From contig CAMTOS010000011.1 in assembly GCA_947074195.1 (NCBI GenBank), positions 1 through 48,792 of the forward strand: a DNA stretch of 48,792 nt. The letters run 5' to 3'. Shown piece by piece: positions 16,890-48,250 of the stretch. This DNA comes from an uncultured Bacteroides sp. Lineage in GTDB: Bacteria > Bacteroidota > Bacteroidia > Bacteroidales > Bacteroidaceae. The position numbers and the translations under genes are program-made. Every line of letters begins with the position of its first letter. The stretch's first letter is position 1. The notes beneath the pieces were generated by a model. The model saw nothing but the letters and a program-made list of their open reading frames with translations. It was not told the origin of the DNA and did no database searches.

Positions 16890-16977
16890 ACAAGTGCTTG
16901 CCAACTCATCAGCAAGCTATACCCAGCTCACTGGGAAGCGCTTCTCAGCATGCTGCCGATAGCTTGTCAGGATTTGA
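16890..16977. repeat. 22-nt tandem array, CAGC/AAGCTT family (4 units)
   Basis: Four units of 22 nt start at 16890, 16912, 16934 and 16956. Each joins two 11-nt halves: for example GCAAGCTATAC then CCAGCTCACTG, and GGAAGCGCTTC then TCAGCATGCTG. Halves centre on short palindromes (AAGCGCTT, CAGCnnGCTG). The array lies between the terminators of two convergent genes. The remaining part of this 335-nt gap holds nothing else I can support. Confidence 0.8.
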
Positions 16978-17014
16978 CATAGCAGATACCCTTTTTTGCC
17001 TTGGGTATTAACGC

Positions 17015-17053
17015 AAACTCTCCCGATAACAACCAGGGTTATCGGGAGAGTTT
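17015..17053. terminator. terminator after the MscS gene
   Basis: AAACTCTCCCGATAAC (17015-17030) pairs perfectly with its complement at 17038-17053, 16 bp with a 7-nt loop. It lies 24 nt beyond the mscS stop. Confidence 0.8.
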
Positions 17054-17076
17054 GTCTATCTTCAGTGATGAATTTC

Positions 17077-18069
17077 TTAATTCTTAGCCTGATGTACAGT
17101 AAGCTGTGGGAAAGGGAAACCGATACCACGTTCGTTGAATGTTTTATAGATCTTTTCATTCATATCGAAGTATACAGGCCAGTAGTCATCAGCCTTCACC
17201 CATCCGCGCATCATTATATTAACACTGCTTGAATCGAGCTTTTGCAGGGCAATAGTCAATGCAGGATTATCAAGGATACGAGGTTCGGCATGAGCCAGTT
17301 CTTTCATTACTTCGTGCACGGTGTCGTAATCCTGTCCGTATTCCACACCTACAATCCACTCCACGCGGCGAAGATTCTGGTTAGTATAGTTGGTAATTAC
17401 ACCGCTACTCAGCGCACCATTAGGTACATACACCATCTTATTATCGGCAGTACTCAGAATGGTATGGAATATCTGGATCTCTTTTACAGTACCCATCTGT
17501 CCCTGACATTCAATCCACTCGCCTATCTTATAAGGTTTCAACAGAAGAATAACCAGACCACCGGCAAAGTTTTGCAGATTGCCCGAAAGCGCCATACCAA
17601 TGGCAACACCACCAGAGGCAAGAAGAGCAGCAAAAGAAGTGGTTTCTACACCTAAAGCTGAAATGACAGAGATAATCAGCAGAACAGTCAGAGAAATGCT
17701 GACCATACTTCTGGTAAATGTCTTTACGCTGATATCAACATCTTTCTTATCCAGAAAACGAAGAACAAGTTTGTTAATGATGCGTATAAGGAAACGACCA
17801 ATGATGAAAACCAGAATAGCTTTCAGAATATGGCCACCCATACTCATTGAACCATCAATCAGTTTCTGAAAGATATCTCCCAGTTTATCGAGCTCGAGTG
17901 CTTCTTCGAACTGATGAATACCATGACCAATAACGGTCGAATCATTGGCAAGATACTGTGCATCATGTGCCAGCTTTGCGGAATCTTTAATAAGTCTTGA
18001 CGAGTCAACTGCAAGTTCAGCAGTCTCTACTGCTGTTTGAATACCTTGTGAGGCTTGAAATAAAGACAT
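17077..18069 (-). CDS. MscS-family small-conductance mechanosensitive channel
   Basis: An inner-membrane tension-gated channel that releases solutes in osmotic downshift. The start is set at 18069 (MSLFQASQGIQ), giving 331 residues; the longer frame from 18171 would begin upstream of the promoter element at 18117. An amphipathic N-terminal region (about 1-65, AVDSSRLIKDSAKLAHDAQYLANDS) precedes three membrane segments. The pore-lining TM3 signature GVAIGMALSGNLQNFAGGLVILLLKPYKIGEW is clear, followed by the beta domain (QGQMGTVKEIQIFHT, VPNGALSSGVITNYT) and an alpha/beta C-terminal domain. The length is near that of E. coli MscS (286) with an extra N-terminal stretch. It is transcribed alone, divergent from the thiamine operon. 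The extra N-terminus has no recognisable domain. Confidence 0.92.
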   Translation of the reverse strand: MSLFQASQGIQTAVETAELAVDSSRLIKDSAKLAHDAQYLANDSTVIGHGIHQFEEALELDKLGDIFQKLIDGSMSMGGHILKAILVFIIGRFLIRIINKLVLRFLDKKDVDISVKTFTRSMVSISLTVLLIISVISALGVETTSFAALLASGGVAIGMALSGNLQNFAGGLVILLLKPYKIGEWIECQGQMGTVKEIQIFHTILSTADNKMVYVPNGALSSGVITNYTNQNLRRVEWIVGVEYGQDYDTVHEVMKELAHAEPRILDNPALTIALQKLDSSSVNIMMRGWVKADDYWPVYFDMNEKIYKTFNERGIGFPFPQLTVHQAKN

Positions 18070-18116
18070 GTAGATTAGATATTTAATTAATTGATATTTA
18101 TTATTATTTGAATCTG

Positions 18117-18124
18117 CAAAAGTA
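18117..18124 (-). promoter_or_regulatory. -7 promoter element of the MscS gene
   Basis: The minus strand reads TACTTTTG, a match to TAnnTTTG, 47 nt upstream of the chosen mscS start. A TTTTT stretch about 19 nt upstream of it can act as -33. This rules against the longer upstream start. Confidence 0.5.
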
Positions 18125-18153
18125 ATTGAAAGCAAACAATTATAAAAACTTTT

Positions 18154-18185
18154 TTTGTTTTGTTGGTGCAATATCAGTAATTTTG
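18154..18185 (+). promoter_or_regulatory. promoter of the thiamine uptake operon
   Basis: TTTG (18154-18157), 20 nt, then TAATTTTG (18178-18185): both Bacteroidetes elements at the expected spacing. Transcription would start just before the TPP riboswitch at 18204. Confidence 0.65.
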
Positions 18186-18203
18186 TAGTCGATTCACTTG
18201 AAA

Positions 18204-18281
18204 AAGGGGTGCCTTAAAACGACGGGCTGAGAACATACCCAAAGAATCTGAACCGGGTAATGCCGGCGTAGAGAACTTATA
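18204..18281 (+). ncRNA. TPP riboswitch (THI element)
   Basis: The conserved parts of the thiamine pyrophosphate aptamer are present in order: GGGGTGCC, GCTGAGA, ACCC, GAACC, GGGTAATGCCGGCGTAGAGAA. It ends about 12 nt before the ATG of the TonB receptor gene. With so short an expression platform, TPP binding probably blocks translation initiation. It controls a TonB receptor, PnuT and TPP kinase, all consistent with thiamine salvage. Confidence 0.96.
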
Positions 18282-18293
18282 ATTAACCCAAAA

Positions 18294-20591
18294 ATGAAGA
18301 AGATTGTCTTAACGGTTGCTGCCTTTGCGGCTGCCAGCGGCATTGTCTATGCGCAAGAGATTGTAAACGACAGCCTGCAAAATGTTAATCTGCAAGAGGT
18401 GCAGATTGTATCAACACGTGCCACAGCCAAAACTCCGGTGGCGTATACCAATGTTTCAAAAGAAGATATACAGAAGCAAAATACAGGTCTCGACCTGCCT
18501 TTCCTGCTCCTCAACACTCCTTCGGTGCTAACCACATCTGATGCCGGTGCCGGTATCGGTTATACATCTATCCGCGTTCGTGGTACAGATGCAACACGTA
18601 TCAATGTAACGGCTAACGGCATTCCGATGAACGATGCGGAAAGCAGTTCAGTGTATTGGGTGAACACGCCCGACCTTGCTACATCGCTTGAAGATATTCA
18701 GATTCAGCGTGGTGCCGGAACATCGACCAATGGTTCGGGAGCATTCGGGGCAAGTATCAATATGCGTACACAAAATGCATCGGCTACTCCTTACGGAGAG
18801 GTATCGGGTTCGTACGGCTCATTTAATTCGCACAAAGAGATGATTCGTCTGGGTACAGGCATCATCCGCAATCACTGGGCTTTCGATGCACGTATCTCGA
18901 ACATCGGCAGTGATGGTTACCGCGACAGAGCCTCATCTGATCTGAAATCGTATTTTGCACAAGGAACTTATTTCGGTGAAACAACAACTGTGAAATTCAT
19001 CACTTTCGGCGGTCGCGAAAAGACTTATCATGCCTGGGACGGTATCAGCCTGAAACAGCTTAACGAAGATCGCACGTACAATCCGAATGGAGCAATCAAG
19101 GATGATAACGAGAATAAAGGTAAGGTCATCGGTTTCTATGATGATCAGATCGACTATTATAAACAAACGCACTATCAACTGATTCTTACTCAGCGTCTGG
19201 CTGCCGGATGGCAACTGAATGCTGCTTTGCATTACACCAAAGGTTATGGTTATTATCAGGAATATAAGAATGGACGTACGCTTAAGGAATATGGCATTGC
19301 GCCATATTATGCGCCAACTTTCGGCGAAGATGGTACGCCGGATGGTTATGAACTGATTAAGAAACAGAATCTGATTCGTAAGAAGATTGTAGATAATCAT
19401 TTCGGTGGTGGTGTCTTCTCGGTTGATTACAATATGGGCCGCTGGGCTGCTTCGTTTGGTGGTGGTGGTAATCATTATACCAACGATCACTTCGGACAGG
19501 TGCTTTGGGTGAAGAATTATATCGGCAACCTTGACCCTGATCAGGAGTATTATCGCAATACGGGTAAGAAGACGGATGTAAACTTCTATGCAAAAGCGAA
19601 CTATCAGATTGTAGGTGGACTTCATGCGTATGCGGATCTTCAGTACAGATTTATTCATTATACCATCGATGGTACAAATGATAAGTGGGACTGGACGGCA
19701 TCACCTGAACGTTCGCAGATTCTGGATGTAGATAAGAAGTTCAACTTCTTTAATCCGAAAGCAGGACTTTTCTGGCAAATCAATGCGAACCACTCGGCTT
19801 ATGCATCGTTTGCTATGACCAATAAAGAACCAACCCGAAACAACTATACCGATGGCTTGTTTAATAGTCCACCGAAAGCCGAAAGACTTTTAGACTATGA
19901 ATTGGGTTATACGTATCGTAGTCATATCTTTAATGCAGGTGTAAATCTGTATTATATGGATTATAAAGATCAGCTTGTTCTTAATGGTAAGCTTAACGAA
20001 ATCGGCGAGCTGATGGCAGAGAACGTGAAACATAGTTACCGCATGGGTATCGAATTGATGGCAGGCGTTAAAATTACCCGTTGGCTGGACTGGAATGTGA
20101 ATGCAACCATCAGCAAGAACAGAATTAAAGGCTATACCGGCTACATGAGCGATTATGATGATCAGTGGAATGACATGTGGACACAGACAGCAGTAGAAGT
20201 TGGTGATACGCCGATTGCTTTCTCGCCTAAGTTTATGGCCAACAGCAACATCGGTGTAAACTTCGGTGGTTTTATGGCCAATTTGCAAACGCAGTACGTT
20301 AGTCGCCAGTATCTCGATAACTTTGGCCGCAAAGAAGATTCACTCGATGCCTATTGTGTGAGTACACTGAGTGCCAGTTATACCTTCAGCATACCGGCGG
20401 TTAAAAGCATTACGGTAGGTGCAACTGTTTACAATCTGTTCAATAAGAAATATGTAACCAATGGTTATTCGCAGACTGCTGCCATTTATCAGCAGGGCGA
20501 TAAACAATTAGAGGCACAATACTCATCTGATCCACGCTTCTACCCTATGGCGGGTATCAATGCGCTGGGTACAGTAACCATTCGCTTCTAA
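18294..20591 (+). CDS. TonB-dependent outer membrane receptor for thiamine (or precursor)
   Basis: A 765-residue TonB-dependent receptor. The signal peptide ends near residue 20 (GIVYAQ), followed by a plug domain (about 30-160) with a TonB-box-like start (VQIVSTRATAKTPVAYTNVS), SIRVRGTDATRINVTANGIPMND and the IQRGAGTSTNGSGAFGASINM motif. The rest is a 22-strand barrel ending in aromatic Phe (GTVTIRF). It is the first gene behind the TPP riboswitch and lies 14 nt before pnuT, so it most likely imports thiamine or a phosphorylated or related form across the outer membrane. This arrangement (outer membrane receptor, PnuT, TPP kinase) is known for Bacteroidetes from comparative genomics; substrate assignment is by regulation and neighbours. 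Confidence 0.9.
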   Translation: MKKIVLTVAAFAAASGIVYAQEIVNDSLQNVNLQEVQIVSTRATAKTPVAYTNVSKEDIQKQNTGLDLPFLLLNTPSVLTTSDAGAGIGYTSIRVRGTDATRINVTANGIPMNDAESSSVYWVNTPDLATSLEDIQIQRGAGTSTNGSGAFGASINMRTQNASATPYGEVSGSYGSFNSHKEMIRLGTGIIRNHWAFDARISNIGSDGYRDRASSDLKSYFAQGTYFGETTTVKFITFGGREKTYHAWDGISLKQLNEDRTYNPNGAIKDDNENKGKVIGFYDDQIDYYKQTHYQLILTQRLAAGWQLNAALHYTKGYGYYQEYKNGRTLKEYGIAPYYAPTFGEDGTPDGYELIKKQNLIRKKIVDNHFGGGVFSVDYNMGRWAASFGGGGNHYTNDHFGQVLWVKNYIGNLDPDQEYYRNTGKKTDVNFYAKANYQIVGGLHAYADLQYRFIHYTIDGTNDKWDWTASPERSQILDVDKKFNFFNPKAGLFWQINANHSAYASFAMTNKEPTRNNYTDGLFNSPPKAERLLDYELGYTYRSHIFNAGVNLYYMDYKDQLVLNGKLNEIGELMAENVKHSYRMGIELMAGVKITRWLDWNVNATISKNRIKGYTGYMSDYDDQWNDMWTQTAVEVGDTPIAFSPKFMANSNIGVNFGGFMANLQTQYVSRQYLDNFGRKEDSLDAYCVSTLSASYTFSIPAVKSITVGATVYNLFNKKYVTNGYSQTAAIYQQGDKQLEAQYSSDPRFYPMAGINALGTVTIRF

Positions 20592-20605
20592 ACCAACCAA
20601 AGAAT

Positions 20606-21178
20606 ATGGATTATTTTGAAATAACCGGTACCGTTGTTGGCCTCATCTATTTGTGGCTGGAGTATCGTGCCAGTATTTATTTATGGATTGCAGGTATCAT
20701 TATGCCTGCCATCTATATATATGTATACTACGAAGCCGGTTTGTATGCCGATTTCGGTATCAACATCTATTATCTTTTAGCCGCAGTCTATGGTTTCCTG
20801 GTCTGGAAATTCGGCAAACGCAAAGGCAGCGACAAAGAATTGCCTATTGTAAAGATGCCGTTGAAAAGAGTTATTCCGGCAACGGCCGTCTTCATCATAG
20901 CCTTTATCGGCATTGCAGAGATTCTGATTCGTTTCACCGACAGCGATGTTCCCTGGCTCGATTCATTTACCACCGCACTTAGCATAATCGGTATGTGGAT
21001 GCTGGCACGTAAGTATCTGGAACAATGGCTGGTCTGGATTGTTGTTGATGTGGTATGCTGCGGACTTTACATCTATAAAGGTCTGCACTTTACATCGGCT
21101 TTATATGGTCTTTATGCCATTATAGCTATCTTTGGATATTATAAATGGAAAAAAATGATGCATGATGCAGCTAAATGA
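20606..21178 (+). CDS. pnuT: PnuT-type thiamine transporter (PnuC family)
   Basis: A 190-residue inner-membrane transporter of the PnuC vitamin-uptake family, with about seven hydrophobic segments (for example GIIMPAIYIYVYYEAGLYADFG, NIYYLLAAVYGFLVWKFG). The PnuC signature around Y-x-x-x-Q-x-F is replaced here by the YADFGINIYYLLAAVYGFLVW pattern seen in family members with a hexahelical bundle, and WLVWIVVDVVCCGLYIYKGL matches the typical C-terminal motif WxxWxxxxxxxxxLYxxKxL. Position between the TPP-regulated receptor and TPP kinase indicates facilitated thiamine uptake trapped by pyrophosphorylation. It overlaps the TPP kinase gene by 17 nt, suggesting translational coupling. A nicotinamide riboside role is unlikely in this context. 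Confidence 0.9.
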   Translation: MDYFEITGTVVGLIYLWLEYRASIYLWIAGIIMPAIYIYVYYEAGLYADFGINIYYLLAAVYGFLVWKFGKRKGSDKELPIVKMPLKRVIPATAVFIIAFIGIAEILIRFTDSDVPWLDSFTTALSIIGMWMLARKYLEQWLVWIVVDVVCCGLYIYKGLHFTSALYGLYAIIAIFGYYKWKKMMHDAAK

Positions 21179-21800
21179 TTTACCCAACGAAGCGCAGGCC
21201 GTGATATTGGCCAATGGTTCCTATCCGCGCCATGAAATCCCATTGGATTTACTTAAGAATGCAGCCTATCTGGTATGTTGCGATGGTGCAATTAATGAAT
21301 TAGCGCTTCAACACATTACTCCGGATGTGATTATCGGTGATGGTGATTCCATCTCTGAAGAAAACCGCAGGCGTTTCAACGATATATTTATTCAGGTCGA
21401 TGATCAGGAGACCAATGATCAGACGAAAGCGATTTCTTTTCTTGGTAAGAAAGGAATAAAGAATGTAATTATCCTCGGGGCAACCGGTGGACGCGAAGAC
21501 CATGCGTTGGGAAACATCAGTCTGCTGATAGACTATATGCATCAGGGATTCAATGTTATGATGTATACCAACTATGGTTTATTCATCCCTATGAATGATG
21601 ACAATGTCTTTACCACTTTTACCGGACAGCAAATCTCAATATTCAGCTTTGGCGCTAAAGGTCTGCTTTCCGATGGGCTAAAGTATCCCCTTCACGAGCT
21701 CACCAACTGGTGGCAGGGTACTCTGAACGAGGCCATCGGCGATGAAGTTTCTATCAAAGCCAAAGGCGATTATCTGGTTTATCTGGAATATCCGCAATAA
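21162..21800 (+). CDS. thiamine pyrophosphokinase
   Basis: A 212-residue cytosolic enzyme that makes thiamine diphosphate from thiamine and ATP. Family marks are VCCDGAINEL (about 29-38), the substrate loop DVIIGDGDSIS, DDQETNDQTKAISF (metal and ATP binding acidic motif), ILGATGGREDHALGN and the C-terminal beta domain (IFSFGAKGLLSDGLKYPLH, LNEAIGDEVSIKAKGDYLVYLEY). The length is normal. The start is either ATG 21162 or the adjacent ATG 21165; both overlap pnuT. It is the last gene of the TPP-riboswitch operon, with a terminator 5 nt past the stop. By phosphorylating imported thiamine it also makes the riboswitch ligand, closing a feedback loop. It corresponds to the TPP kinase (tnr3/thiN) in published Bacteroidetes operons. 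Confidence 0.93.
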   Translation: MMQLNDLPNEAQAVILANGSYPRHEIPLDLLKNAAYLVCCDGAINELALQHITPDVIIGDGDSISEENRRRFNDIFIQVDDQETNDQTKAISFLGKKGIKNVIILGATGGREDHALGNISLLIDYMHQGFNVMMYTNYGLFIPMNDDNVFTTFTGQQISIFSFGAKGLLSDGLKYPLHELTNWWQGTLNEAIGDEVSIKAKGDYLVYLEYPQ

Positions 21801-21804
21801 CATA

Positions 21805-21840
21805 AACCCCTGCTTTCTCTTTGTTTGAGAAGCAGGGGTT
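21805..21840. terminator. bidirectional terminator between the thiamine operon and the nitroreductase gene
   Basis: AACCCCTGCTTTCTC (21805-21819) pairs with GAGAAGCAGGGGTT (21827-21840), one bulged T, 7-nt loop. Confidence 0.85.
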
Positions 21841-21857
21841 AATTATTATATCTCTTA

Positions 21858-22487
21858 TTAATTCAAATAAATTATATTCTCTGGTTTCCATTTATCTTTC
21901 GGCGCAGGTTCTTCGGCAGGATAACCTATGGCAACTAAATTAAACGGAACTAAATTAGGGGGAAGATTCAATAATTCCCGAATATAATCTTCACGGGCAG
22001 AAACGGGATAGATGCCACACCATACAGCGCCCAATCCTAATGCATGAGCAGCAAGCAGCATATTCTCCGTAGCGGCTGATGCATCCTGTATCCAGTAGGG
22101 TTGTGCCGTACCGGACAATGCTTTATCTAAGTTTCCGCAAATAGCGATAACAAGCGGAGCGCCGGCTACCATTTTTGAGGTACTTATATTGGCTGAAATA
22201 CTGTCTTTCACTGCCTGATCATTGATCACCACAAATGCCCAGGGTTGTTGATTGCGGGCCGATGGTGCAGCCATAGCAGCTTTCAACAAAGTTTCCACAT
22301 CTTCTCCTGAAACAGGTTGATCAGTATAGGCACGGATGCTTGTACGGGTCATGATGTTGTCGATAACCGCCTGAGCTGTATCGACTGGTTCATGTTCGTG
22401 ATTCCCGTCTGGAAAAAGAATTATTTTCACTGAAAGTAGCACAACGGCAAGTGCTAAAATGATGTTCACAAATTTAGTTGTATCCAT
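21858..22487 (-). CDS. membrane-anchored nitroreductase-family flavoprotein
   Basis: A 209-residue protein with an N-terminal hydrophobic helix (about 6-26, FVNIILALAVVLLSVKIIL) and an FMN-dependent nitroreductase fold after it. Family marks are RTSIRAYTDQPVSGEDVETLL (phosphate-binding start), APSARNQQPWAFVVI, and AATENMLLAAHALGLGAVWCGIYP. Most nitroreductases are soluble, so the anchor is unusual. With few positive residues before the helix and a polar HEHEP linker after it, the catalytic domain may face the periplasm. It follows 3 nt after the stop of the FMN/4Fe-4S membrane protein gene, so they form an operon and probably an electron-transfer pair. The physiological acceptor is unknown. 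Confidence 0.85.
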   Translation of the reverse strand: MDTTKFVNIILALAVVLLSVKIILFPDGNHEHEPVDTAQAVIDNIMTRTSIRAYTDQPVSGEDVETLLKAAMAAPSARNQQPWAFVVINDQAVKDSISANISTSKMVAGAPLVIAICGNLDKALSGTAQPYWIQDASAATENMLLAAHALGLGAVWCGIYPVSAREDYIRELLNLPPNLVPFNLVAIGYPAEEPAPKDKWKPENIIYLN

Positions 22488-22490
22488 ATC

Positions 22491-23573
22491 TTATTTTTGA
22501 TTTTGATAGATTTTTATCAGCGTTCCCGTTGGGCAAACGAACCGGCAGTAGGGTCTGTTAATGAATAATGATACAATAATGAAGAGTACCGTAATTACAA
22601 TTACAATAACAGAAGTCTGATTCACCATAAATGCACTGAACAGTTCGTAGTCCATCCAGCTAAACAACAATCCGCTCCAAAGCAATAGCATGAGTAGTGC
22701 CCATAATACTTCACGGAAAAGAGTGAGGTATTTATTGGTTTTATCGGATAACCGGAGTTTTCGCTTTGTACATTTGCCGGCTACTTCCTGCAAAGATCCC
22801 AGCGGACAAATCCAGTTGCAGTAATGATTAGATTTACCAAAAAGTGGATAAAGGAAGACAACAAGCAGCAGAATAACTGGTATAATGGATGACCAGATGC
22901 GCACACCATTAGAGGTATAGTTTACCAGCAGAAGATAAGACACGAAATGGCCGCACCAGAAGCCCAACACCCCGATATTCAGAACCAATTGCACCATTCT
23001 GTATCGCTTTGAGCGAATAAACAGTGGTAAAACACACGCCATCAAAATGACAATCAGCGCGCAAATGAACTTAGGAGAATAGACAACCGTATAGCTTGGA
23101 ATATCATCGACATTCAATGAAGATGCATACTGCAACCCACGTCTAACTGATCCGATTACTGCATCCGAAGTATAAGTAGCACCCGATATGGCATCGACTT
23201 TCAGGTTCAAGGCTTCTTCGGGAGTCAGTCCGATCCATGCTTTAAACACACGGGTCCGTTTTACATCATCGATATAAGATGGAGTCTCGGCGTTGCGCAA
23301 TGCTTTCACATCGATAATACGTCCATCGCGAATGTATATTTCTAAAGGTATCGGACCGCCATAGCCTATAATGTCGGAAGCCAGCGAACGTGTTGAGATA
23401 ACAACAGTACCGTCGTTCAGAATATTTTCAGGGTTTACCGATTCCTCTTCTTCTACCTTGTAATTGTTTAATTCATAACCAAATACCCGGCCGTCTCTGT
23501 TGACAGATATAGCGATAATCATCAATAGGCAAGTGACAAAACTAAAGACAAGTTGCCATTTAAAATACTTCAT
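22491..23573 (-). CDS. FMN-binding and 4Fe-4S-binding membrane protein (NosR/NapH-like)
   Basis: A 360-residue membrane redox protein from the chosen start ATG 23573 (MKYFKWQLVFSF); a longer frame to 23708 would add a 45-residue tail overlapping the divergent upstream region. After one N-terminal membrane helix lies an FMN-binding domain (about 40-155). Its DAISGATYTS holds the flavinylation motif, with Thr133 as the expected FMN attachment site added by an ApbE-type transferase. Then come about five membrane helices and two CxxxCP motifs (CNWICPLG and CRFVCPTG) of the NapH/NosR polyferredoxin type, which would bind iron-sulfur centres at the cytoplasmic side. It probably moves electrons between the membrane and an extracytoplasmic flavin. 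The nitroreductase gene 3 nt downstream is the likely partner. No apbE gene is in the window. Confidence 0.85.
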   Translation of the reverse strand: MKYFKWQLVFSFVTCLLMIIAISVNRDGRVFGYELNNYKVEEEESVNPENILNDGTVVISTRSLASDIIGYGGPIPLEIYIRDGRIIDVKALRNAETPSYIDDVKRTRVFKAWIGLTPEEALNLKVDAISGATYTSDAVIGSVRRGLQYASSLNVDDIPSYTVVYSPKFICALIVILMACVLPLFIRSKRYRMVQLVLNIGVLGFWCGHFVSYLLLVNYTSNGVRIWSSIIPVILLLVVFLYPLFGKSNHYCNWICPLGSLQEVAGKCTKRKLRLSDKTNKYLTLFREVLWALLMLLLWSGLLFSWMDYELFSAFMVNQTSVIVIVITVLFIIVSLFINRPYCRFVCPTGTLIKIYQNQK

Positions 23574-27214: not shown

Positions 27215-27272
27215 CATGATTATCAGTTAGCCTGGTAAATTTTAATTCATTGGTAAGCTATTTAACATTTGG

Positions 27273-27382
27273 TGCATAAGGCTATGCACTAAAATGCAGA
27301 AGGCTATGCAGCATAGTGCAAAAGGCTATGCACTAATCTTCCAAAGGCTTGGCAGGAAATTGCAGAAGGTTGTGCAGCATAA
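27273..27382. repeat. 22-nt tandem array, TGCA family (5 units)
   Basis: Five units of exactly 22 nt start at 27273, 27295, 27317, 27339 and 27361. Units 1-3 are close to each other: TGCAnAAGGCT then ATGCACTAAAA, ATGCAGCATAG or ATGCACTAATC. Unit 4 is divergent (TTCCAAAGGCT then TGGCAGGAAAT) and unit 5 keeps the pattern (TGCAGAAGGTT then GTGCAGCATAA). The array lies between the thrC terminator and the promoter of the metallo-hydrolase gene. The same unit occurs at 5456. Confidence 0.9.
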
Positions 27383-38578: not shown

Positions 38579-38763
38579 ACGTTCCGATTTAAAAGATTTG
38601 GTTTAACAAAGGGAGTTAGCAAAAACAGCTTTATTACTTTTCTTCGCTAACTTCTGACAATTTATTGATTTTTATCCGATTATCCAAATATTTTCCCACT
38701 TAATTATCTTATACACTTATAGTTATATCTTTTATCAACCAGGATATAATCGGCACAAACCCA

Positions 38764-38851
38764 GCCATAGCTTCTCAGCACGGTGGCGATAGCTTGCCAG
38801 CCGGCCAGCGATAGCTGCCTGGTAAGTCAGCAATAGCTTCCTGAGGAATGA
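38764..38851. repeat. 22-nt tandem array, CAGC/AAGCTT family (4 units)
   Basis: Units of 22 nt start at 38764, 38786, 38808 and 38830. Each starts with GCnATAGCT: GCCATAGCTTC then TCAGCACGGTG, GCGATAGCTTG then CCAGCCGGCCA, GCGATAGCTGC then CTGGTAAGTCA, GCAATAGCTTC then CTGAGGAATGA. It lies in the 386-nt gap between the divergent katA and radA genes; the rest of the gap holds the radA promoter. Confidence 0.85.
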
Positions 38852-41053: not shown

Positions 41054-42640
41054 ATGATTCAGGAATATCAATTGAGAGTGTTGCCCGAAGTAGCGGTGAA
41101 TGAACAACGTCTGAAGGAGTTTTTGCAGGAAGAAAAAGGCCTCAATCCTTCAGAAATAAATGCTGTACGAATACTTAAACGTAATATAGATGCACGTCAG
41201 CGTACAGTCTATATGAATCTGAGTGTTCGCGTGTTCATCAATGAAATACCTCACGATCAGGAATTCCCGGTAACAGATTATCCGAATGTGGAAAATAAAC
41301 CACAGGTGATAGTGGTTGGTGCCGGTCCCGGTGGTTATTTCGCAGCACTACGCTTAATTGAACTTGGCCTTCGACCTGTTGTTGTGGAGAGAGGTAAGAA
41401 TGTACGTGACCGTAAAGTTGATATTGCACTGATCAGCCGCGAACATACCGTTAATCCTGAATCGAACTATAGCTTTGGAGAGGGAGGTGCCGGTGCTTAC
41501 TCCGATGGTAAACTATTTACCCGAAGCAAGAAGCGTGGTAATACCGATAAGATTATGCATGTATTCTGTCAGCATGGAGCATCGACTTCTATTCTGATAG
41601 ATGCTCATCCACATATTGGTACCGATAAGCTGCCGCGTGTTATCGAGAATATGCGTGAAACCATTATCAGATGTGGTGGAGAGGTTCATTTCGAAACCCG
41701 TATGGATGCTATTATCATTGAAAACAGTGAAGTAAAAGGTATTCAGACTGACAATGGTAAAACGTTCATGGGTCCGGTGATTCTTGCTACCGGACATTCT
41801 GCCCGCGATGTTTATCGCTGGCTGGCCAATAATGATGTCACACTCGAAGCTAAAGGGATTGCAGTTGGTGTACGTCTGGAACATCCTGCCAAACTGATTG
41901 ATCAGATCCAGTATCATACCAAAGATGGTCGTGGAAAATATCTTCCTGCAGCCGAATATAGTTTTGTTTCGCAGGTAGAAGGCCGTGGTGTATATAGTTT
42001 TTGTATGTGCCCCGGTGGTTTCGTTGTACCGGCAGCCAGTGGTCCTGAACAGGTAGTAGTAAATGGTATGTCGCCATCAAACCGTGGTTCACGATGGAGC
42101 AACTCTGGGATGGTTGTCGAAATACAGCCGGAAGATCTTGCCCGTACCGATTTACAGGTATTAGGCGAAGAAACTGCAGAACACCAAGTGTTGCAGATGC
42201 TTAACTTCCAGGAAGCACTGGAACGTCAGTGCTGGATGCAGGGAGGTCGCACACAGGTGGCACCTGCGCAACGTATGGAAGATTTTACACGTCGCAAACT
42301 TAGCGTTGATCTGCCGGAATCATCTTATAGCCCGGGATTAATTGCCTCTCCGCTTCACTTCTGGATGCCTGAGTTTATTACGAAACGCCTTTCGCTGGGG
42401 TTCCAGAACTTTGGCCGTTCACGCCGTGGTTTCCTGACTAACCAGGCCACGATGATCGGTATAGAAACACGTACTTCTGCACCTGTTCGCATTGTCCGCG
42501 ACCGTGAAACACTGCAACATATCACTGTTAGTGGTCTGTTTCCTTGTGGTGAAGGTGCAGGTTATGCAGGAGGTATAGTATCGGCAGGAGTAGATGGTGA
42601 AAGATGCGCAGAAGCAGTAGCTAACTACCTAAATCTGTAA
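41054..42640 (+). CDS. FAD-dependent oxidoreductase (COG2509-type flavoprotein)
   Basis: A 528-residue cytosolic flavoprotein. After an N-terminal domain of about 90 residues (LRVLPEVAVNEQRLKEFLQEEKGL) comes the Rossmann FAD motif VIVVGAGPGGYFAALRLIELGLRPVVVERG. YSFGEGGAGAYSDGKLFTR and ILATGHSARDVYRWL are typical of the uncharacterised COG2509 'FAD-dependent dehydrogenase' family. The C-terminus has GLFPCGEGAGYAGGIVSAGVDGERCAEA, the second FAD-contacting block. Substrate is unknown. The LuxR-type regulator gene begins 6 nt after its stop, so the two are cotranscribed. Confidence 0.88.
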   Translation: MIQEYQLRVLPEVAVNEQRLKEFLQEEKGLNPSEINAVRILKRNIDARQRTVYMNLSVRVFINEIPHDQEFPVTDYPNVENKPQVIVVGAGPGGYFAALRLIELGLRPVVVERGKNVRDRKVDIALISREHTVNPESNYSFGEGGAGAYSDGKLFTRSKKRGNTDKIMHVFCQHGASTSILIDAHPHIGTDKLPRVIENMRETIIRCGGEVHFETRMDAIIIENSEVKGIQTDNGKTFMGPVILATGHSARDVYRWLANNDVTLEAKGIAVGVRLEHPAKLIDQIQYHTKDGRGKYLPAAEYSFVSQVEGRGVYSFCMCPGGFVVPAASGPEQVVVNGMSPSNRGSRWSNSGMVVEIQPEDLARTDLQVLGEETAEHQVLQMLNFQEALERQCWMQGGRTQVAPAQRMEDFTRRKLSVDLPESSYSPGLIASPLHFWMPEFITKRLSLGFQNFGRSRRGFLTNQATMIGIETRTSAPVRIVRDRETLQHITVSGLFPCGEGAGYAGGIVSAGVDGERCAEAVANYLNL

Positions 42641-42646
42641 ACAGGA

Positions 42647-43243
42647 ATGATGAAGCATGCACCCGAAATTGCGATAATCGATGCCAATACACTAAGTGCG
42701 CTGGGATTGCAGAATATACTGGAGGAACTTATTCCGATGGCTACCATTCGTATATTCAACAGTCTTAGTGCATTAGTAGAAGATACTCCCGATATGTATG
42801 CTCATTATTTCATATCGGCACATTTATATATGGAGCATACGGCTTTCTTTATTCCCCGCAAGAAGAAAGCGATAGTTATGGCTGGCGAGAGTCAGTCGTT
42901 TCAGTTGTCGGGTGTGCCTATCCTTAATATATATCAACCCAAAGAGATGTTAGTGAAAGATATTCTGAAGCTTCATCAACATGCACATCACAGAGGGAAT
43001 CCCCCTGAAGCAATGCCCCCAAAGCGAATGCTGGAGCATGAACTCTCTGCCCGCGAAGTAGAGGTTTTAGTACAGATTACTAAAGGTTTTATCAATAAGG
43101 AGATTGCCGACAAACTGAATATCAGTCTGACAACGGTCATTACGCATCGCAAGAATATCACTGAAAAACTTGGCATTAAATCAGTTTCTGGTCTTACAAT
43201 CTATGCGGTGATGAATGGTTACGTGGAGGCGGATCGTATATAA
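42647..43243 (+). CDS. LuxR-type transcriptional regulator with degenerate receiver domain
   Basis: A 198-residue protein with a C-terminal LuxR/GerE helix-turn-helix (about 133-195: LSAREVEVLVQITKGFINKEIADKLNISLTTVITHRKNITEKLGI). The N-terminal 120 residues resemble a receiver (IAIIDANTLSALGLQNILEEL), but where the phosphoacceptor Asp of strand 3 is expected the sequence reads HYFISAHLY, with no Asp. Phosphorylation is therefore unlikely; the domain may bind a ligand or a partner. It sits 68 nt upstream of a TonB-dependent receptor gene, which it may control. No partner histidine kinase is adjacent. ATG 42647 is followed by a second ATG; either could be used. Confidence 0.85.
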   Translation: MMKHAPEIAIIDANTLSALGLQNILEELIPMATIRIFNSLSALVEDTPDMYAHYFISAHLYMEHTAFFIPRKKKAIVMAGESQSFQLSGVPILNIYQPKEMLVKDILKLHQHAHHRGNPPEAMPPKRMLEHELSAREVEVLVQITKGFINKEIADKLNISLTTVITHRKNITEKLGIKSVSGLTIYAVMNGYVEADRI

Positions 43244-43260
43244 ATCCTAATAAATGAGGA

Positions 43261-43291
43261 TTGTACATTCGCATCATTTGTTGTTCCTTTG
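43261..43291 (+). promoter_or_regulatory. probable promoter of the TonB receptor gene
   Basis: TTG (43261-43263) and TTCCTTTG (43284-43291), 20 nt apart; the -7 element has one mismatch to TAnnTTTG. A weak core element fits control by the upstream regulator. Confidence 0.4.
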
Positions 43292-43311
43292 CAGCGAATA
43301 ACAAATGAAGA

Positions 43312-45732
43312 ATGAAGAAAACACTATTTTTTATTGCACTCTCTTTTATAACATGTCTGTTTGTCCGTGCGGATGAATTACCACAAGACTCTGTCAGAGT
43401 AGTCGATGTAGAGGAGATCTTAGTCATTGGTACTCCTAAAGAGAATCGTAAACTGCGTGAATTACCTGCTGCTGTTACTCTATTATCACAGAAAGATATG
43501 CAGGCCAATCAGGTGACTTCCATTAAGAGTCTGAGCGCTCTTGTTCCAAGTATTTATATCCCCGACTATGGTTCAAAACTGACTTCCGCTATCTACATAC
43601 GTGGAGTAGGTTCACGTATAAATACTCCATCAGTAGGATTGTATGTGGACAATGTGCCTTATATCGATAAGTCGGCTTTCGATTTCAACTATTCTGATAT
43701 TGAACGCATCGATGTACTTCGCGGACCGCAGGCTACACTTTATGGCCGCAATACTATGGGTGGATTGATTCGCGTGCATACCAAGTCACCTTTTAGCTAT
43801 CAGGGGACTGACCTTAAACTCGGGGCAGCGACTTATGGCACTTACAATGCATCATTAACTCATTTTCACCGGATATCAGAGAAGTTTGCCTTTTCTGTGG
43901 GTGGTTTTTATGACCATGCCAATGGTTTCTTTAAGAATACAGCATTAGATAAAAAGGTAGACTGGCTTAATTCGGGTGGTGGTCGTATCCGTGCAATACT
44001 TTTGCCCTCGGACAATGTGAAACTGGACTTTAATGTCAATTATGAATACAGCAAGCAGGGTGGATATCCGTATATCTATACCGGGAGAGTTTTCTTAGCC
44101 GATGGAGAAACTGATCCACGCGAAGATAAGATTGGCAAGATCTCTTACAATGATGAGAGTACCTATAAGCGCAATCTGTTTAATACCAATCTGAATGTAG
44201 TCTATCAAGGCAATAAATTTATATTCAATGCCGTAACTGGTTACCAGTATCTGAAGGATCGTATGTTCCTGGATCAGGATTTTACGGAGAAGGATATATT
44301 TAATCTGGATCAGCGACAAAAGCTGAATGTGCTTTCGGAAGAGATTGTGTTTAAGTCGAAACCGGGAACATGGTGGGAATGGACTTCCGGCGCTTTCGGG
44401 TTCTATCAATGGCTGAATACAAACGGACCTGTAACTTTCAAAGGACAAGGTGTTCAGGAAGTTATTCAGGATAATATCAACAATAATATACCATCAATGG
44501 GGGCTATGGGGAGCATGGATATCGATATCACCTCGCGCCCACTCTATGTTAGCGGTAACTTCGATACGCCCATTCTGAACGGGGCCATCTTTCATCAATC
44601 TATCTTTAAAATTGTGCCGGGCTTTACGGCGACAGTTGGTTTGCGTCTGGATTATGAAAAGACATCGCTGACTTACAATTCGGGCAGTCAGATTAACTAT
44701 GATTTCAATATGGATAGCCGCATGTTGCCCGAACCGATTAAACAATCACTTAGCTTGTCGCCTGTGCTGAAAGGGAAGATAGAAAATAGCTATCTGCAAC
44801 TACTTCCTAAGTTTGCTTTGCAGTACGAATGGAAGCAGGGAAGCAATGTGTATGCCACTATTTCAAGAGGTTATCGCTCGGGTGGATACAATGTACAGAT
44901 GTTCTCTGACCTGATACAGACTTGTATGGAGAATGGAATGAAAGGACAGGTGAAAGACGAAGTGATTAAGATTTTTGATAACATTCAGGGAATGCCTGAA
45001 TCAATTAAAGAGAGTATCATCTCTAAAATTCCCGGAGCTGGTCCGGAACCTGATGTAAAAGGATCTACGACTTACAAACCTGAATATACATGGAATTATG
45101 AAGTGGGTGCCCGCCTTAATTTGTTTAATAACCGTTTGGTGATGGATGGTGCGCTATACTTTATGGATACAAAAGATCAGCAGGTAGCCAAATTTGCGGA
45201 GAGCGGGCTGGGCCGCATCACAACAAATGCAGGAAAAAGTAAGAGCTATGGAGCGGAAGCAACTATACGTGCAGGTATCACCGAGTGGCTGAGTGTTCAT
45301 GCAAACTATGGATATACGCATGCCACGTTTAAAGATTATGAGACTAATGAAAAAGTAGATGGTCAACTCGAGACGATTGACTATACCGGTAACTACGTCC
45401 CTTTTGTACCCAGACATACGCTTAGCGCAGGGGCACAATATATCTGGAAGATGCCTACCCGTTGCCTATGGCTGGATCGAATTCAGTTTAACCTGAACTA
45501 CAACGCAGCCGGGCGAATATACTGGACAGAAAACAATGAGGCCAGCCAGTCGTTTTACGGAACAATGGACGGTCGTATCAGCTTTGAAAAAGGTCCTGGG
45601 GCTGTGGCATTCTGGGTACGAAATGCACTCGACAAGAAGTATCAGACGTTCTACTTCGAATCAATGGGCAATGGCTTTATGCAACGGGGTCGCCCCCGAC
45701 AGTTCGGTGTAGAAGTGAGATGTCGCTTTTAA
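43312..45732 (+). CDS. TonB-dependent outer membrane receptor
   Basis: An 806-residue TonB-dependent receptor, not of the SusC type (no carboxypeptidase-like N-terminal extension). The signal peptide ends near residue 20 (CLFVRADELP). The plug has VEEILVIGTPKENRKLRELPAAV as TonB-box region, SAIYIRGVGSRINTPSVGLYVDNVPY and IDVLRGPQATLYGRNTMGGLIRV. The barrel ends in RRPRQFGVEVRCRF-like strands with terminal Phe (FGVEVRCRF). This plug style is common in siderophore, haem and other small-ligand receptors. No riboswitch is in front; the adjacent LuxR-type regulator is the likely controller. Substrate unknown. Confidence 0.9.
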   Translation: MKKTLFFIALSFITCLFVRADELPQDSVRVVDVEEILVIGTPKENRKLRELPAAVTLLSQKDMQANQVTSIKSLSALVPSIYIPDYGSKLTSAIYIRGVGSRINTPSVGLYVDNVPYIDKSAFDFNYSDIERIDVLRGPQATLYGRNTMGGLIRVHTKSPFSYQGTDLKLGAATYGTYNASLTHFHRISEKFAFSVGGFYDHANGFFKNTALDKKVDWLNSGGGRIRAILLPSDNVKLDFNVNYEYSKQGGYPYIYTGRVFLADGETDPREDKIGKISYNDESTYKRNLFNTNLNVVYQGNKFIFNAVTGYQYLKDRMFLDQDFTEKDIFNLDQRQKLNVLSEEIVFKSKPGTWWEWTSGAFGFYQWLNTNGPVTFKGQGVQEVIQDNINNNIPSMGAMGSMDIDITSRPLYVSGNFDTPILNGAIFHQSIFKIVPGFTATVGLRLDYEKTSLTYNSGSQINYDFNMDSRMLPEPIKQSLSLSPVLKGKIENSYLQLLPKFALQYEWKQGSNVYATISRGYRSGGYNVQMFSDLIQTCMENGMKGQVKDEVIKIFDNIQGMPESIKESIISKIPGAGPEPDVKGSTTYKPEYTWNYEVGARLNLFNNRLVMDGALYFMDTKDQQVAKFAESGLGRITTNAGKSKSYGAEATIRAGITEWLSVHANYGYTHATFKDYETNEKVDGQLETIDYTGNYVPFVPRHTLSAGAQYIWKMPTRCLWLDRIQFNLNYNAAGRIYWTENNEASQSFYGTMDGRISFEKGPGAVAFWVRNALDKKYQTFYFESMGNGFMQRGRPRQFGVEVRCRF

Positions 45733-45770
45733 ACGATAAGACAATCAGCAGACTTTAGAATAACTTTGCA

Positions 45771-45824
45771 AATTCGCTTAATTGTGTGATGACAATCGTC
45801 ACCGGTTAAGCGAATTATTTTTTT
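45771..45824 (+). terminator. terminator of the TonB receptor gene
   Basis: AATTCGCTTAA (45771-45781) pairs with TTAAGCGAATT (45806-45816), with an inner GTGA/TCAC stem, followed by T7. The 3' arm overlaps the stop codon of the convergent ion-channel gene. Confidence 0.8.
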
Positions 45825-46624
45825 GTATCAGCTGATGCATTGCCGGGATTTGCAGGAGCAGATGAAGCCGTATTGCCTGAAGGAGTACCGGGTGTTTGTC
45901 CGGCATTTTCCTGACTTGAAAAGAACTGATCTTCTCTGTTATTTGCCTTCTGTATCATATTGGTAATGTATACAGTAAAGATCGGGAACATCATCATGCC
46001 CAAAGCGGCCAGCAATACTGACAATACCTTTCCGGTTACACTCATGGCTGTTATATCTGAACCTACGGTTGTACAATCCATAAATGCCCACCAGATGGCA
46101 TCGCCGTAAGTAGTTACCAACGGATTGATTTTATGCTCAATAACGTAAAAGGCAAGACTAGAAAAGTAGATGGTAGAAAATAACATCATCGAATATGAAA
46201 TCAGCAATCGCGATGCCTTATTGTAGGTAAGCCATCCCACAACAATGGCCAGTGCGTAACCACCTCTGACAAGTGGTATAAAACGAAGAAAATAAGTGAG
46301 TTCTTCTGAGAATGTCCACCCGAAATAAGCGATAATATTCTGATAAGGAATGGCAATTAGAAAGAATAGAAAACGCGAGCGAATATAGCGCCATTTGCGA
46401 TTGGCCATGAAGAGTTCCAGGAAAAAGTTGAACAGAAACCATATACAGATCCACAACTGCACTTTCATATATGATGTCTGCGAATAGAAGGCAATGCCTT
46501 TAAAAGTATCTATCGAAATACTGATGACAAGAAACAAAGACAGAATCAGTGTCACAATATGAAGTATATTGTATATTGTCTTCTTCTGGAAGATAAAGTT
46601 TACTAATGAAAATGACATATTCAC
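45815..46624 (-). CDS. voltage-gated-like ion channel with atypical selectivity filter
   Basis: A 269-residue inner-membrane protein of the six-helix ion-channel type. Hydrophobic segments lie at about 20-38, 55-73 and 85-101. An S4-like segment with two Arg (FLRFIPLVRGGYAL, about 112-125) follows, then S5 (140-163), a pore helix and filter, and S6 (197-225). The pore reads AIWWAFMDCTTVGSDI: the filter TTVGSD (185-190) resembles the potassium TTVGYGD but lacks Tyr-Gly, being one residue shorter. The C-terminal 40 residues are a low-complexity Gly/Ser/Pro/Ala tail. A potassium channel is the nearest family; ion selectivity is uncertain. It is transcribed alone. Confidence 0.8.
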   Translation of the reverse strand: MNMSFSLVNFIFQKKTIYNILHIVTLILSLFLVISISIDTFKGIAFYSQTSYMKVQLWICIWFLFNFFLELFMANRKWRYIRSRFLFFLIAIPYQNIIAYFGWTFSEELTYFLRFIPLVRGGYALAIVVGWLTYNKASRLLISYSMMLFSTIYFSSLAFYVIEHKINPLVTTYGDAIWWAFMDCTTVGSDITAMSVTGKVLSVLLAALGMMMFPIFTVYITNMIQKANNREDQFFSSQENAGQTPGTPSGNTASSAPANPGNASADTKK

Positions 46625-46782
46625 TACGTTTTAAATAATAAGAACTCTTTTGGTTTAGGTGTATCGTTGGTTAAGCTTATAGAAAAACAACATAGCTTCG
46701 AACTTTGTTTAATGATTTATATATTATACATATGTATATACTATTTATGTTTCGAGCTCCATTTACTGGTAAAATGTTCTGA

Positions 46783-46815
46783 TTTGCTGGTATAGTTAAC
46801 AGTTTTATAGATTTG
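46783..46815 (+). promoter_or_regulatory. promoter of the MFS transporter gene
   Basis: TTTG (46783-46786), 21 nt, TAGATTTG (46808-46815): both Bacteroidetes elements. The leader before ATG 46874 is about 50 nt. The rest of the 46625-46873 gap is AT-rich with a short palindrome TATACATATGTATA near 46730. Confidence 0.6.
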
Positions 46816-46873
46816 TTGAACATTACTTTAATCAAATTGTTTGTTTAAAATATAACCTAAATAAATTCAGCAT

Positions 46874-48124
46874 ATGAAAATTCAAACGGGTCGGGGAACC
46901 ATTCCATTACTTACGTTAATAGGAATATGGTCTATTTCAGCTCTTACATCACTACCAGGATTAGGAGTATCGCCTATACTGGGAAAATTGGCTGAAGTCT
47001 TCCCTACGGCATCAGATCTGGAAGTACAAATGTTGACTTCTTTACCGTCGCTTCTCATCATCCCATTCACTCTACTGGCGGGTAAACTGACAGAAAAAAA
47101 TAACTATGTAGGCATACTTTTAACCGGGCTTATCATATTTACAGCCAGTGGTGTACTTTACATGCTATCCGATAAGATGTGGATGCTTATTGCGGTAAGT
47201 GCTTTGCTCGGTATCGGGGCAGGTATCATAATTCCATTATCAACAGGACTTATATCGAGATTCTTCGTTGGCAAATATCGTGTAAAACAGTTTGGTTTAA
47301 GTTCTGCCATTACTAATGTTACGCTGGTAATTGCGACATTTGTTACAGGTGTGCTTGCCGATCTGAAAAACTGGCACTGGCCATTTATCGTCTATCTTCT
47401 TCCGGTATTCTCTATCCTTTTGTCCTATTGGTTAAGAAGCAGCATCAATAAGAAACAGGGTGTTACCACTGTTCTTGATGATCCGGCAGATAAAGTTGTC
47501 ATTCCTGATGATTTGGCCAAAAGCAAACATGGCATCAATGTAAAACATCTTGGAAGCATCATGGGTCTGTATGGAATTATAACTTATATCGTAATTATCG
47601 TGTCGTTCAATCTGCCATTCCTGATGCAGTCGTACGGATATGACAGCGGACATTCTGGTTTCATGATATCACTGTTCTTCCTCGCTATCATGGCTCCCGG
47701 ATTCTTCCTGAATTATATACTGAAATTCCTCAAAGGAAAAGTAATAATCTTCAATCTGATAATTATTGCGGTGGGGCTCTTCCTGGTTTGGGTATTCCAT
47801 GCCGAATGGATTATTGCTATAGGTTGTATTTGTATGGGATTAGGTTATGGTATTATTCAGCCACTTCTTTACGAAAAAACAACTTTGTCGGCCATTCCGC
47901 AGAAATCTACTCTTGCTCTTGGGTTTATGATGGCCATGAACTATGTAGCTATTCTATTGTGTCCGTTTATCGTCGATTTATTCGAACTGATATTCCATAC
48001 AAAATCAGAACATTTCCCGTTTGTATTCAACTTGGTACTTACCGGAATTCTTATTGCGATAGCAGTTGTTCGTCATAAAACATTCTTGTTTACCGATATT
48101 AATAAGCAGAGTTCTTTAGACTAA
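46874..48124 (+). CDS. major facilitator superfamily transporter
   Basis: A 416-residue permease with 12 predicted membrane helices. The MFS loop-2/3 motif is present in modified form (LAGKLTEKNNYVGILLTGLIIF), and ALLGIGAGIIIPLSTGLISRFFVGKYRVKQFGLSSAITNVTLVIATFVTGVLAD covers helices 4-5 with their conserved glycines and the basic loop. A central cytoplasmic loop of about 40 residues (about 190-225) separates the halves. FLNYILKFLKGKVIIFNLIIIAVG and GCICMGLGYGIIQPLLYEKTTL mark the second half. Substrate cannot be told; it resembles CynX-like and multidrug-type carriers. It is a single-gene unit. Confidence 0.88.
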   Translation: MKIQTGRGTIPLLTLIGIWSISALTSLPGLGVSPILGKLAEVFPTASDLEVQMLTSLPSLLIIPFTLLAGKLTEKNNYVGILLTGLIIFTASGVLYMLSDKMWMLIAVSALLGIGAGIIIPLSTGLISRFFVGKYRVKQFGLSSAITNVTLVIATFVTGVLADLKNWHWPFIVYLLPVFSILLSYWLRSSINKKQGVTTVLDDPADKVVIPDDLAKSKHGINVKHLGSIMGLYGIITYIVIIVSFNLPFLMQSYGYDSGHSGFMISLFFLAIMAPGFFLNYILKFLKGKVIIFNLIIIAVGLFLVWVFHAEWIIAIGCICMGLGYGIIQPLLYEKTTLSAIPQKSTLALGFMMAMNYVAILLCPFIVDLFELIFHTKSEHFPFVFNLVLTGILIAIAVVRHKTFLFTDINKQSSLD

Positions 48125-48162
48125 TCTTCACAGATTATTACTCATAAATAAAGCAATTATCA

Positions 48163-48250
48163 GCTATATATACTCAGCGTGCTGGCAAGCTATTGTCAGC
48201 ACGCTGGGTATATATGGCCAGCACACCGGCAAGCGCTTACCAGCAAACAG
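48163..48250. repeat. 22-nt tandem array, CAGC/AAGCTT family (4 units)
   Basis: Units of 22 nt start at 48163, 48185, 48207 and 48229: GCTATATATAC then TCAGCGTGCTG, GCAAGCTATTG then TCAGCACGCTG, GGTATATATGG then CCAGCACACCG, GCAAGCGCTTA then CCAGCAAACAG. Units 1-3 fold into a 19-bp hairpin (48166-48184 with 48197-48215, one G-T pair) with a 12-nt loop, which may also terminate the MFS transcript. The rest of the gap 48125-48426 holds only the terminator at 48370. Confidence 0.85.

Follow-up and report, generated by a model that had tools for sequence, protein, structure and literature searches.

Dispersed arrays of 22-nt dyad units along a Bacteroides chromosome, candidate platforms for a DNA-binding protein

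The window analysed here, a 48,792-nt stretch of DNA from an uncultured Bacteroides species, carries arrays of 22-nt units in two sequence families, with no strand assigned to any of them. Three arrays of a CAGC-type family (F3), called by both the profiles and the R2 model, lie at 16885..16972 (units at 16885, 16907, 16929 and 16951), 38759..38846 and 48158..48245. Each has four units, as a sequence-only reading of this DNA had already described for these places. Self-match at lag 22 is 46–52% in each of the three, and symmetric (dyad) centres recur every 11 bp. A sister family of TGCA type (F1), with the motif TGCAnAAGGCTnTGCA, was found by lag scan, pattern and profiles at 5453..5540 (four units, the fourth F3-like) and at 27270..27379 (five units). 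Of the window's top six lag-22 stretches, five are F1 or F3 arrays; the remaining one, around 13150, is AT-rich, and the profiles did not call it. At gathering thresholds, Rfam reported the TPP riboswitch alone in the window and no family at the arrays.

The genic context given in the sequence-only reading, two arrays between convergent genes and one between divergent genes, holds in part. Array 38759 does occupy a divergent gap, flanked by a catalase gene (−) and an AAA-ATPase/Lon-like gene (+). Array 16885 is convergently flanked only if an 86-aa open reading frame at 16481–16741 is a gene. Array 48158 lies downstream of an MFS transporter gene (+); the gene beyond it is truncated by the end of the contig, and a convergent setting there is possible.

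In 449 kb of the genome, a lag scan gave 20 arrays at lag 22, 10 at its multiple of 44, and 0–1 at other lags not divisible by three. Profile search identified 47 distinct arrays, exactly four units being present in 37 of them, and the step from unit to unit was 22 nt in 155 of 155 cases. The period holds while the letters vary. The sequence-only reading would have been refuted by a genome scan with no further arrays or with a lost 22-nt spacing, and the scan showed neither. In the whole genome, the CAGC-type pattern (one mismatch allowed) had 41 matches and the TGCA-type pattern 85, versus 0 for either pattern read backward. Chance origin of the arrays is excluded, since the backward-read patterns gave 0 matches and both controls of the 449-kb sample (Markov-simulated and reversed sequence) gave 0 arrays. 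Counted strand-wise, two sequence models match this genome at least 150 and at least 154 times, and this Bacteroides chromosome probably contains well over a hundred short intergenic arrays. The units thus share with REP and REPIN elements an extragenic, palindromic character at more than 100 copies, and their 22-bp steps, equal to two helical turns, set degenerate dyads in clusters as expected of an Lrp/AsnC-type platform.

Arrays are placed between genes and most often behind them: in same-strand gaps, the array is closer to the end of the upstream gene in 22 of 25 cases, and divergent gaps hold 10 of the 44 arrays for which both neighbours were called. Along the chromosome the arrays are evenly spaced. 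In 847 kb, 38 arrays define 25 gaps of 9.4–40 kb (mean 20.1 kb, CV 0.38), with no gap under 8 kb where 10 were expected, a result matched by 0 of 5000 simulations; when each contig kept its own number of arrays, 0 of 20,000 runs reached this evenness. The two families avoid each other as well, the closest F1–F3 pair in the 847-kb sample being 10.4 kb apart. Outside this sample, one hand-read pair of arrays (C77) lies 2.9 kb apart. The further gaps read by hand omit contig C24 (a predicted array at 4183 and a single-unit match at 22453) and a one-mismatch single unit at C46:4812, which has an array roughly 1.4 kb away; on C25, C98 and C128, two matches within about 110 nt were provisionally counted as one array. 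As a side observation, F1 and F3 arrays alternate at 19 of 25 neighbours (P = 0.009), a pattern noticed post hoc on which we place no weight. The sister family (arrays 5453 and 27270), the usual number of four units and the even chromosomal spacing were all absent from the sequence-only reading.

The degeneracy of the units resembles that of binding sites. Unit identity within arrays exceeds that of permuted units by a small amount, both for F1 (15.20 of 22 positions versus 14.82, P = 0.011) and for F3 (13.62 versus 13.30, P = 0.027), and likeness among CAGC-type arrays is no greater than among column-shuffled ones. Because units are hardly more alike within an array than between arrays, the arrays look, on their letters, like independent degenerate sites rather than duplicated copies, with a little shared descent possible in the TGCA family. 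In four hand-matched pairs of 23-nt arrays, core letters were kept in 64 of 64 cases and spacer letters in 98 of 108. The F3 arms combine a symmetric consensus with no compensatory change (414 of 500 shuffles reached their covariation score), a pattern that suits a binding site for a protein dimer rather than a hairpin. In F1, 80.5% of arm cells pair and 0 of 500 shuffles reached the covariation score; a pure protein-site reading does not predict such compensatory pairing, which F1 shows to some degree.

Relatives carry the same plan in other letters. The first patterns hinted that arrays were confined to this species, a view discarded once models and lag scan revealed motifs of the relatives' own. 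The related species G157 has its own motif on the same array plan, and its arrays are also evenly spaced (P = 0.0003 over 19 gaps, the shortest being 8.9 kb). G160, with 8 called arrays, has too few for a spacing test, and two of its three seed profiles, which finished at 3 and 1 units, gave no information. Array positions are common to relatives at 5 of 10 comparable places, a partial orthology; the G160 gap matching window array 16885 (lag-22 score 34, AT-rich) was scored absent by eye. A single exact match in G059, a genome of another family, found no confirmation with the R2 model.

Our leading explanation, held tentatively at somewhat below even odds, is that the arrays serve as platforms, each for four dimers of a protein, at intervals along the chromosome, where they most likely mark or anchor topological or nucleoid domains. 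Each array would offer four degenerate, dyad-symmetric 22-bp sites two helical turns apart, hence on a single DNA face. Four dimers of a DNA-binding protein could fill these putative sites cooperatively and bend or wrap about 90 bp, as octameric Lrp/AsnC-type proteins do. Such platforms, set between genes, often just past gene ends, and recurring every 9–40 kb, would most likely mark or anchor domains. We infer the protein binding, the joint action of four dimers and the chromosome-organising role, and the sequence-only suggestion of selected spacing and a cooperative protein on one face of the DNA fits the constant steps and the dyad centres every 11 bp. Several observations count against the platform reading: the 10 of 47 arrays with other than four units, the compensatory pairing in F1, the close pair on C77, a 50-kb contig (C9) with 0 arrays, and the partial orthology of positions. 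AsnC-domain genes speak for both sides: the presence of 2–3 per genome in 8 of 8 genomes searched favours a protein of this type, while their occurrence regardless of array motif counts against it.

One unlikely alternative is that the arrays are non-autonomous mini-elements, in which four 22-bp sites bind a transposase whose target immunity blocks nearby insertion and so produces even spacing. Tn7 carries four 22-bp TnsB sites at one end, and the fixed 4 × 22 plan, the spacing minimum near 9 kb, the species-specific families and the absence of 5 of 10 positions from relatives would all fit. However, a search for target duplication around the 47 arrays (lengths 2–9, offsets −14 to +14) found equal flanks in excess at no pair of offsets lying outside the arrays, a result on which a MITE was also rejected. 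Read by eye, the flanks showed nothing in common apart from T at −9 and A at +8, both half-unit-like. In addition, no recent near-identical copies were found among F3 arrays, F1 and F3 arrays avoid each other and not only their own kind, and three motif patterns had 0 exact matches in viral contigs. The sequence-only proposal of young copies of one mobile unit is likewise not supported, given the near-equal unit identity within and between arrays, the result of column shuffling for the CAGC type and the lack of any target duplication in that search. The transposase search covered Y1_Tnp (PF01797, RAYT) only; this genome (assembly 90.9% complete), G157 and G160 gave no match, leading us to reject RAYT-driven REPs, and of the 8 genomes searched only G091 had one.

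We regard as quite unlikely that the arrays are strong sites for DNA gyrase or another topoisomerase behind transcription units, by analogy with E. coli BIME-2. Placement at the 3′ ends of genes and dyads every 11 bp would suit this. In excerpts of one study, BIME-2 shows enriched gyrase cleavage in E. coli and might, according to its authors, have a part in organising the genome; G/C content varies in phase at gyrase sites (PMC6379681). The phase of the E. coli motif given there (PMC6379681) is 10 bp, however, versus the 11/22 lattice here, and we would hardly expect gyrase specificity to change its motif between related species.

Rather improbable is a role as RNA, in which as many as four small hairpins in the 3′ part of a transcript would serve its stability, processing or termination. 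Arms able to pair around a 4-nt core, the F1 covariation and the position at gene 3′ ends speak for it, but F3 covaries no more than its shuffles, 10 of 44 arrays sit in divergent gaps, no Rfam family matches, and a transcript-end signal would not predict even chromosomal spacing. Very improbable, and rejected here, are ordinary minisatellites born of replication slippage: the tandem phase is perfect and the 23-nt, four-unit TR1 of B. fragilis does differ in repeat number among isolates (PMC7585543, in excerpt), but within-array units are not local copies, most arrays keep four of them, and spacing is even. As the sequence-only reading also held, contiguous degenerate units without spacers are not CRISPR arrays, which require identical repeats and unique spacers.

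Extending the platform reading, it is possible, if on balance doubtful, that Bacteroides chromosomes carry ruler-like four-dimer platforms at fairly regular intervals. Their lattice, of about four sites at 22 or 23 bp, would persist from species to species under changing letters, as though a rapidly evolving architectural protein had been re-coded along with its many dispersed sites, and in this species two site classes would alternate along the chromosome. The evolutionary puzzle is that many dispersed sites would swap motif yet retain number, period and spacing. To our knowledge, the sites that organise bacterial chromosomes are either REP/BIME repeats or short motifs that occur singly. If the reading is true, an intergenic four-site lattice with near-regular spacing would offer a direct handle on how chromosomes of Bacteroides, dominant gut bacteria, are divided into domains.

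Among known systems, the BrickBuilt MITE of Porphyromonas gingivalis comprises 19 copies of a 23-nt minisatellite with 1 to 22.8 non-identical intergenic tandem units, leader and tail segments and IS5-like terminal repeats (PMC4596501). The arrays here resemble it as non-identical intergenic tandem units of 22–23 nt in Bacteroidales, but most have four units, and the search around them revealed no target duplication. The VNTR locus TR1 of Bacteroides fragilis YCH46, a non-coding typing marker with four units of the 23-nt AACATCCGGATGTTTTAATATAT in the excerpted description (PMC7585543), is our array L391; the window arrays differ from it in motif and period (22 versus 23 nt). REP/BIME elements and REPINs are, in the excerpted account, extragenic, palindromic, present at >100 copies per genome, and often composite with alternating orientation (PMC2817692). 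Our arrays are likewise extragenic, palindromic and mostly behind genes, but they differ in keeping strictly to a 22-nt lattice, in having four units as a rule and in being evenly spaced, and no Y1_Tnp/RAYT gene was found in this genome. Lrp-type dimers, as excerpted, bind degenerate 13–17 bp imperfect inverted repeats clustered two or three turns apart in the control regions of target genes, and the proteins are often octamers that wrap DNA (PMC2995911). The predicted sites described here are similarly clustered degenerate dyads two turns apart but, unlike those in that account, are found for the most part behind genes and at even distances on the chromosome.

The three CAGC-type arrays that the sequence-only reading had proposed for the window are real, with four 22-nt units apiece at 16885-16972, 38759-38846 and 48158-48245, and two further arrays of 22-nt units, at 5453-5540 and 27270-27379, belong to a second family with the motif TGCAnAAGGCTnTGCA. 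The window is contig C11 in its entirety, and start-to-start distances of its five arrays are 9.4 to 11.5 kb. Self-match at 22 nt is 46-52% in the three CAGC-type arrays, where dyad centres recur every 11 bp, giving each unit two symmetric centres, A around AAGCGCTT/ATAGCTT and B around CAGCnnGCTG. The array at 16885 is flanked, by eye, by two terminator-like hairpins (16763-16801 and 17015-17055) and is therefore not the obvious terminator there. Searched with Rfam at the gathering threshold, the whole window gave no match besides a TPP riboswitch (RF00059, 56.9 bits) at 18195-18292 on the + strand. At the contig end, a 42-nt unit is repeated in tandem some 2.3-2.6 times (48602-48752); read by eye on the + strand, it stays open and could encode a repeat rich in acidic residues and leucine.

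In a lag scan (lags 6-100, 66-nt window, at least 38 matches) of 449 kb, comprising 20 stretches of 20 kb and the window, lag 22 yielded 20 arrays and lag 44 yielded 10, with 0 or 1 array at each of the other lags that are not multiples of three and 0-4 at multiples of three. A profile of two families, TGCA-type (F1) and CAGC-type (F3), called 23 arrays in the same 449 kb; Markov-simulated and reversed sequence gave none. One of the lag-22 arrays (L067:19044), called by neither family profile, could reflect chance or a different family. Once loci from pattern searches were added to the profile calls, there were 47 distinct arrays, of four units in 37 cases, three in 1, five in 6, and six, seven and eight in one each. 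The step between units is exactly 22 in 155/155 steps, under a profile that tolerated steps of 21 and 23 at a penalty. Four-unit stretches from 43 of the 47 arrays (22 F1, 21 F3; the six five-unit arrays cut to four, the three-, six-, seven- and eight-unit arrays excluded) align without gaps across 88 columns. An A-N4-T around the A centre is common to both families; each unit column conserves it fully or to at least 90%, which is partly by construction because the arrays were found by profile.

With ORFs called by a simple length rule, 40 of the 47 arrays overlap no ORF of at least 70 aa, six overlap just a short and possibly spurious ORF (73-104 aa), and one (L065:19556) lies at the putative start side of a 900-aa ORF. 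The 44 arrays with both neighbours called occupy 9 convergent, 10 divergent and 25 same-strand gaps; the corresponding numbers for 83 background gaps of 150 nt or more are 7, 28 and 48. In 22 of the 25 same-strand gaps the array lies closer to where the upstream gene ends than to where the downstream gene starts.

Along the chromosome, arrays are evenly spaced. A count over 14 stretches of the host genome, nine of them complete contigs and 847,420 bases in all, gave 38 arrays, and the 25 within-contig gaps average 20.1 kb (CV 0.38, minimum 9.4 kb, maximum 40.3 kb), with 0/25 under 8 kb. When 38 sites were drawn randomly from all 182 intergenic gaps measuring 130 nt or more, the CV was 0.86 +- 0.15, 10.0 +- 2.3 distances fell below 8 kb, and 0/5000 runs equalled the observed evenness. 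With counts per contig fixed, 10.5 +- 2.2 distances below 9 kb were expected, and 0/20,000 runs came down to the observed number. On other contigs, an incomplete set of hand-read places among the matches listed yields 15 gaps between 2.9 and 16.4 kb; a single one, of 2,886 nt on C77, is shorter than 8 kb. No array was called on the 50-kb contig C9, where 4/5 genes scanned carry glycan-utilisation or hybrid two-component domains, from which we infer a polysaccharide-utilisation island. On contigs C1-C14, 19/25 adjacent array pairs combine one F1 with one F3 array, against 12.8 on average in shuffles (P 0.009, a post hoc observation), which looks like an interleaving of two classes of site. Such regularity suggests that the arrays act at the scale of the chromosome and not on individual genes. 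It would also result from the main rival explanation, that the arrays are target-immune mini-elements.

On the origin of the arrays, units of the same array resemble one another just a little more than permuted units do (15.20/22 versus 14.82/22 in F1, P 0.011; 13.62/22 versus 13.30/22 in F3, P 0.027), and 87/88 F1 and 84/84 F3 units are distinct. Likeness between F3 arrays stays within the range of column shuffles (maximum 64/88 versus up to 67); the closest F1 pair scores 77, above 200 shuffles (72), so F1 arrays may share some descent. The pattern is that of independently drawn degenerate sites, not of tandem duplication or recent transposition, which speaks against the earlier suggestion of young copies of one mobile unit. 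No target duplication was found at the 47 arrays at offsets from -14 to +14, and the flanks were screened for inverted repeats by eye.

Ten host arrays have flanks aligned on both sides in the related genomes G157 or G160, and the matching gap holds a 22-nt array for five and none for the other five, a modest excess over the 38/182 gaps occupied (binomial ~0.04, hand calculation). Three of the shared arrays are profile-called and two rest on lag scores of 37 and 36, where other lags reach at most 27 and 31; one of these two arrays lies in a 3.8-kb gap. In the reverse direction, a host array is present for 2/3 G157 and 1/1 G160 arrays with aligned flanks. The motif mostly differs within shared pairs, both being TGCA-type at C8:11247; sites may have been re-coded where they stood or regained at the positions they once held.

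Searches of relatives with one sequence-only model per family (R1 and R2) scored at most 150 candidates per genome. On this basis G157 has at least 135 strand-wise R2 matches and G160 at least 36 with R1, numbers are lower in G161, G091, G156, G175, G018 and G019, and there are none in G072, G097, G092, G013, G076 and G066 (both models), G129 and G130 (R1 only) or G059 (R2 only). G157 has its own motif on the identical plan, with consensus GGTGACtAGgcCTaGTCACC. Of 25 arrays in seven stretches (six complete contigs plus 20 kb of C5), 18 have four units and two have two; 62 steps measure 22, 7 measure 23 and 1 measures 21. The G157 profile called none in simulated sequence, and the 19 gaps between arrays average 24.7 kb (minimum 8.9 kb, CV 0.45; P 0.0003 with counts per contig fixed). 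A 23-nt family, made up of ACATSSSSATGT and a further 11 nt, is found in other members of the genus; its two-unit pattern occurs in 37/158 genus genomes versus 1/295 genomes drawn from the order, the single match being a congener. In four hand-matched pairs, with orthology judged from the strings alone, core letters are kept in 64/64 and spacers in 98/108 positions (Fisher P 0.014); the search pattern had fixed the arms, not cores or spacers. Array L391 of G072 is flanked by both primers printed for locus TR1 of B. fragilis YCH46 in PMC7585543, which makes G072 Bacteroides fragilis or a very close neighbour. Since the genomes are assigned to one genus, the window too is most likely Bacteroides DNA. 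On G077:C1, 23-nt-family arrays among the matches listed lie at ~715, 800, 901, 1071, 1152 and 1316 kb, with 81 kb or more between neighbours, so this family may be spaced too, more widely than the 22-nt arrays. Further repeats include palindrome pairs like CGATAACTGTTAACAGTTATCG, 44 nt apart, in G161 (L248, L249, L250; another repeat class), 23-nt arrays with a TATATACT core in G097 (L241, L243; a further motif on a similar lattice), and 22-nt arrays of TTGCCAAAGCCTTGGCAA-like units, some with more than four, in G091 (a 7.1-Mb congener; L232:8770, L235:11648).

Each array would bind four cooperating dimers, judging from its symmetric sites two turns apart, usually four in number, whose period is strict although their letters are degenerate. 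The best-described model is the Lrp/AsnC proteins, whose dimers (PMC2995911) recognise imperfect inverted repeats of 13-17 bp at degenerate, clustered sites two or three turns apart, with octamers and wrapping. AsnC-domain genes number 2-3 per genome in 8/8 genomes searched, but nothing ties these genes to the arrays. A second rival to such dimers, after the mini-elements, is gyrase sites of the BIME-2 type (PMC6379681). The third, RNA hairpins, finds covariation in F1 (score reached by 0/500 shuffles) yet not in F3 (414/500), so the constraint that the families share is not strand folding.

Open-access PMC, searched by words and motif letters (most subscription papers and bioRxiv lie outside it), returned no account of four-unit or evenly spaced Bacteroides arrays. 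Published comparisons are the B. fragilis VNTR paper (PMC7585543) and the BrickBuilt repeat of P. gingivalis (PMC4596501); BrickBuilt differs from the present arrays in its copy range, its leader and tail, and its terminal repeats. By form the arrays belong among the extragenic palindromic repeats, as a new variant, and their function is possibly new.
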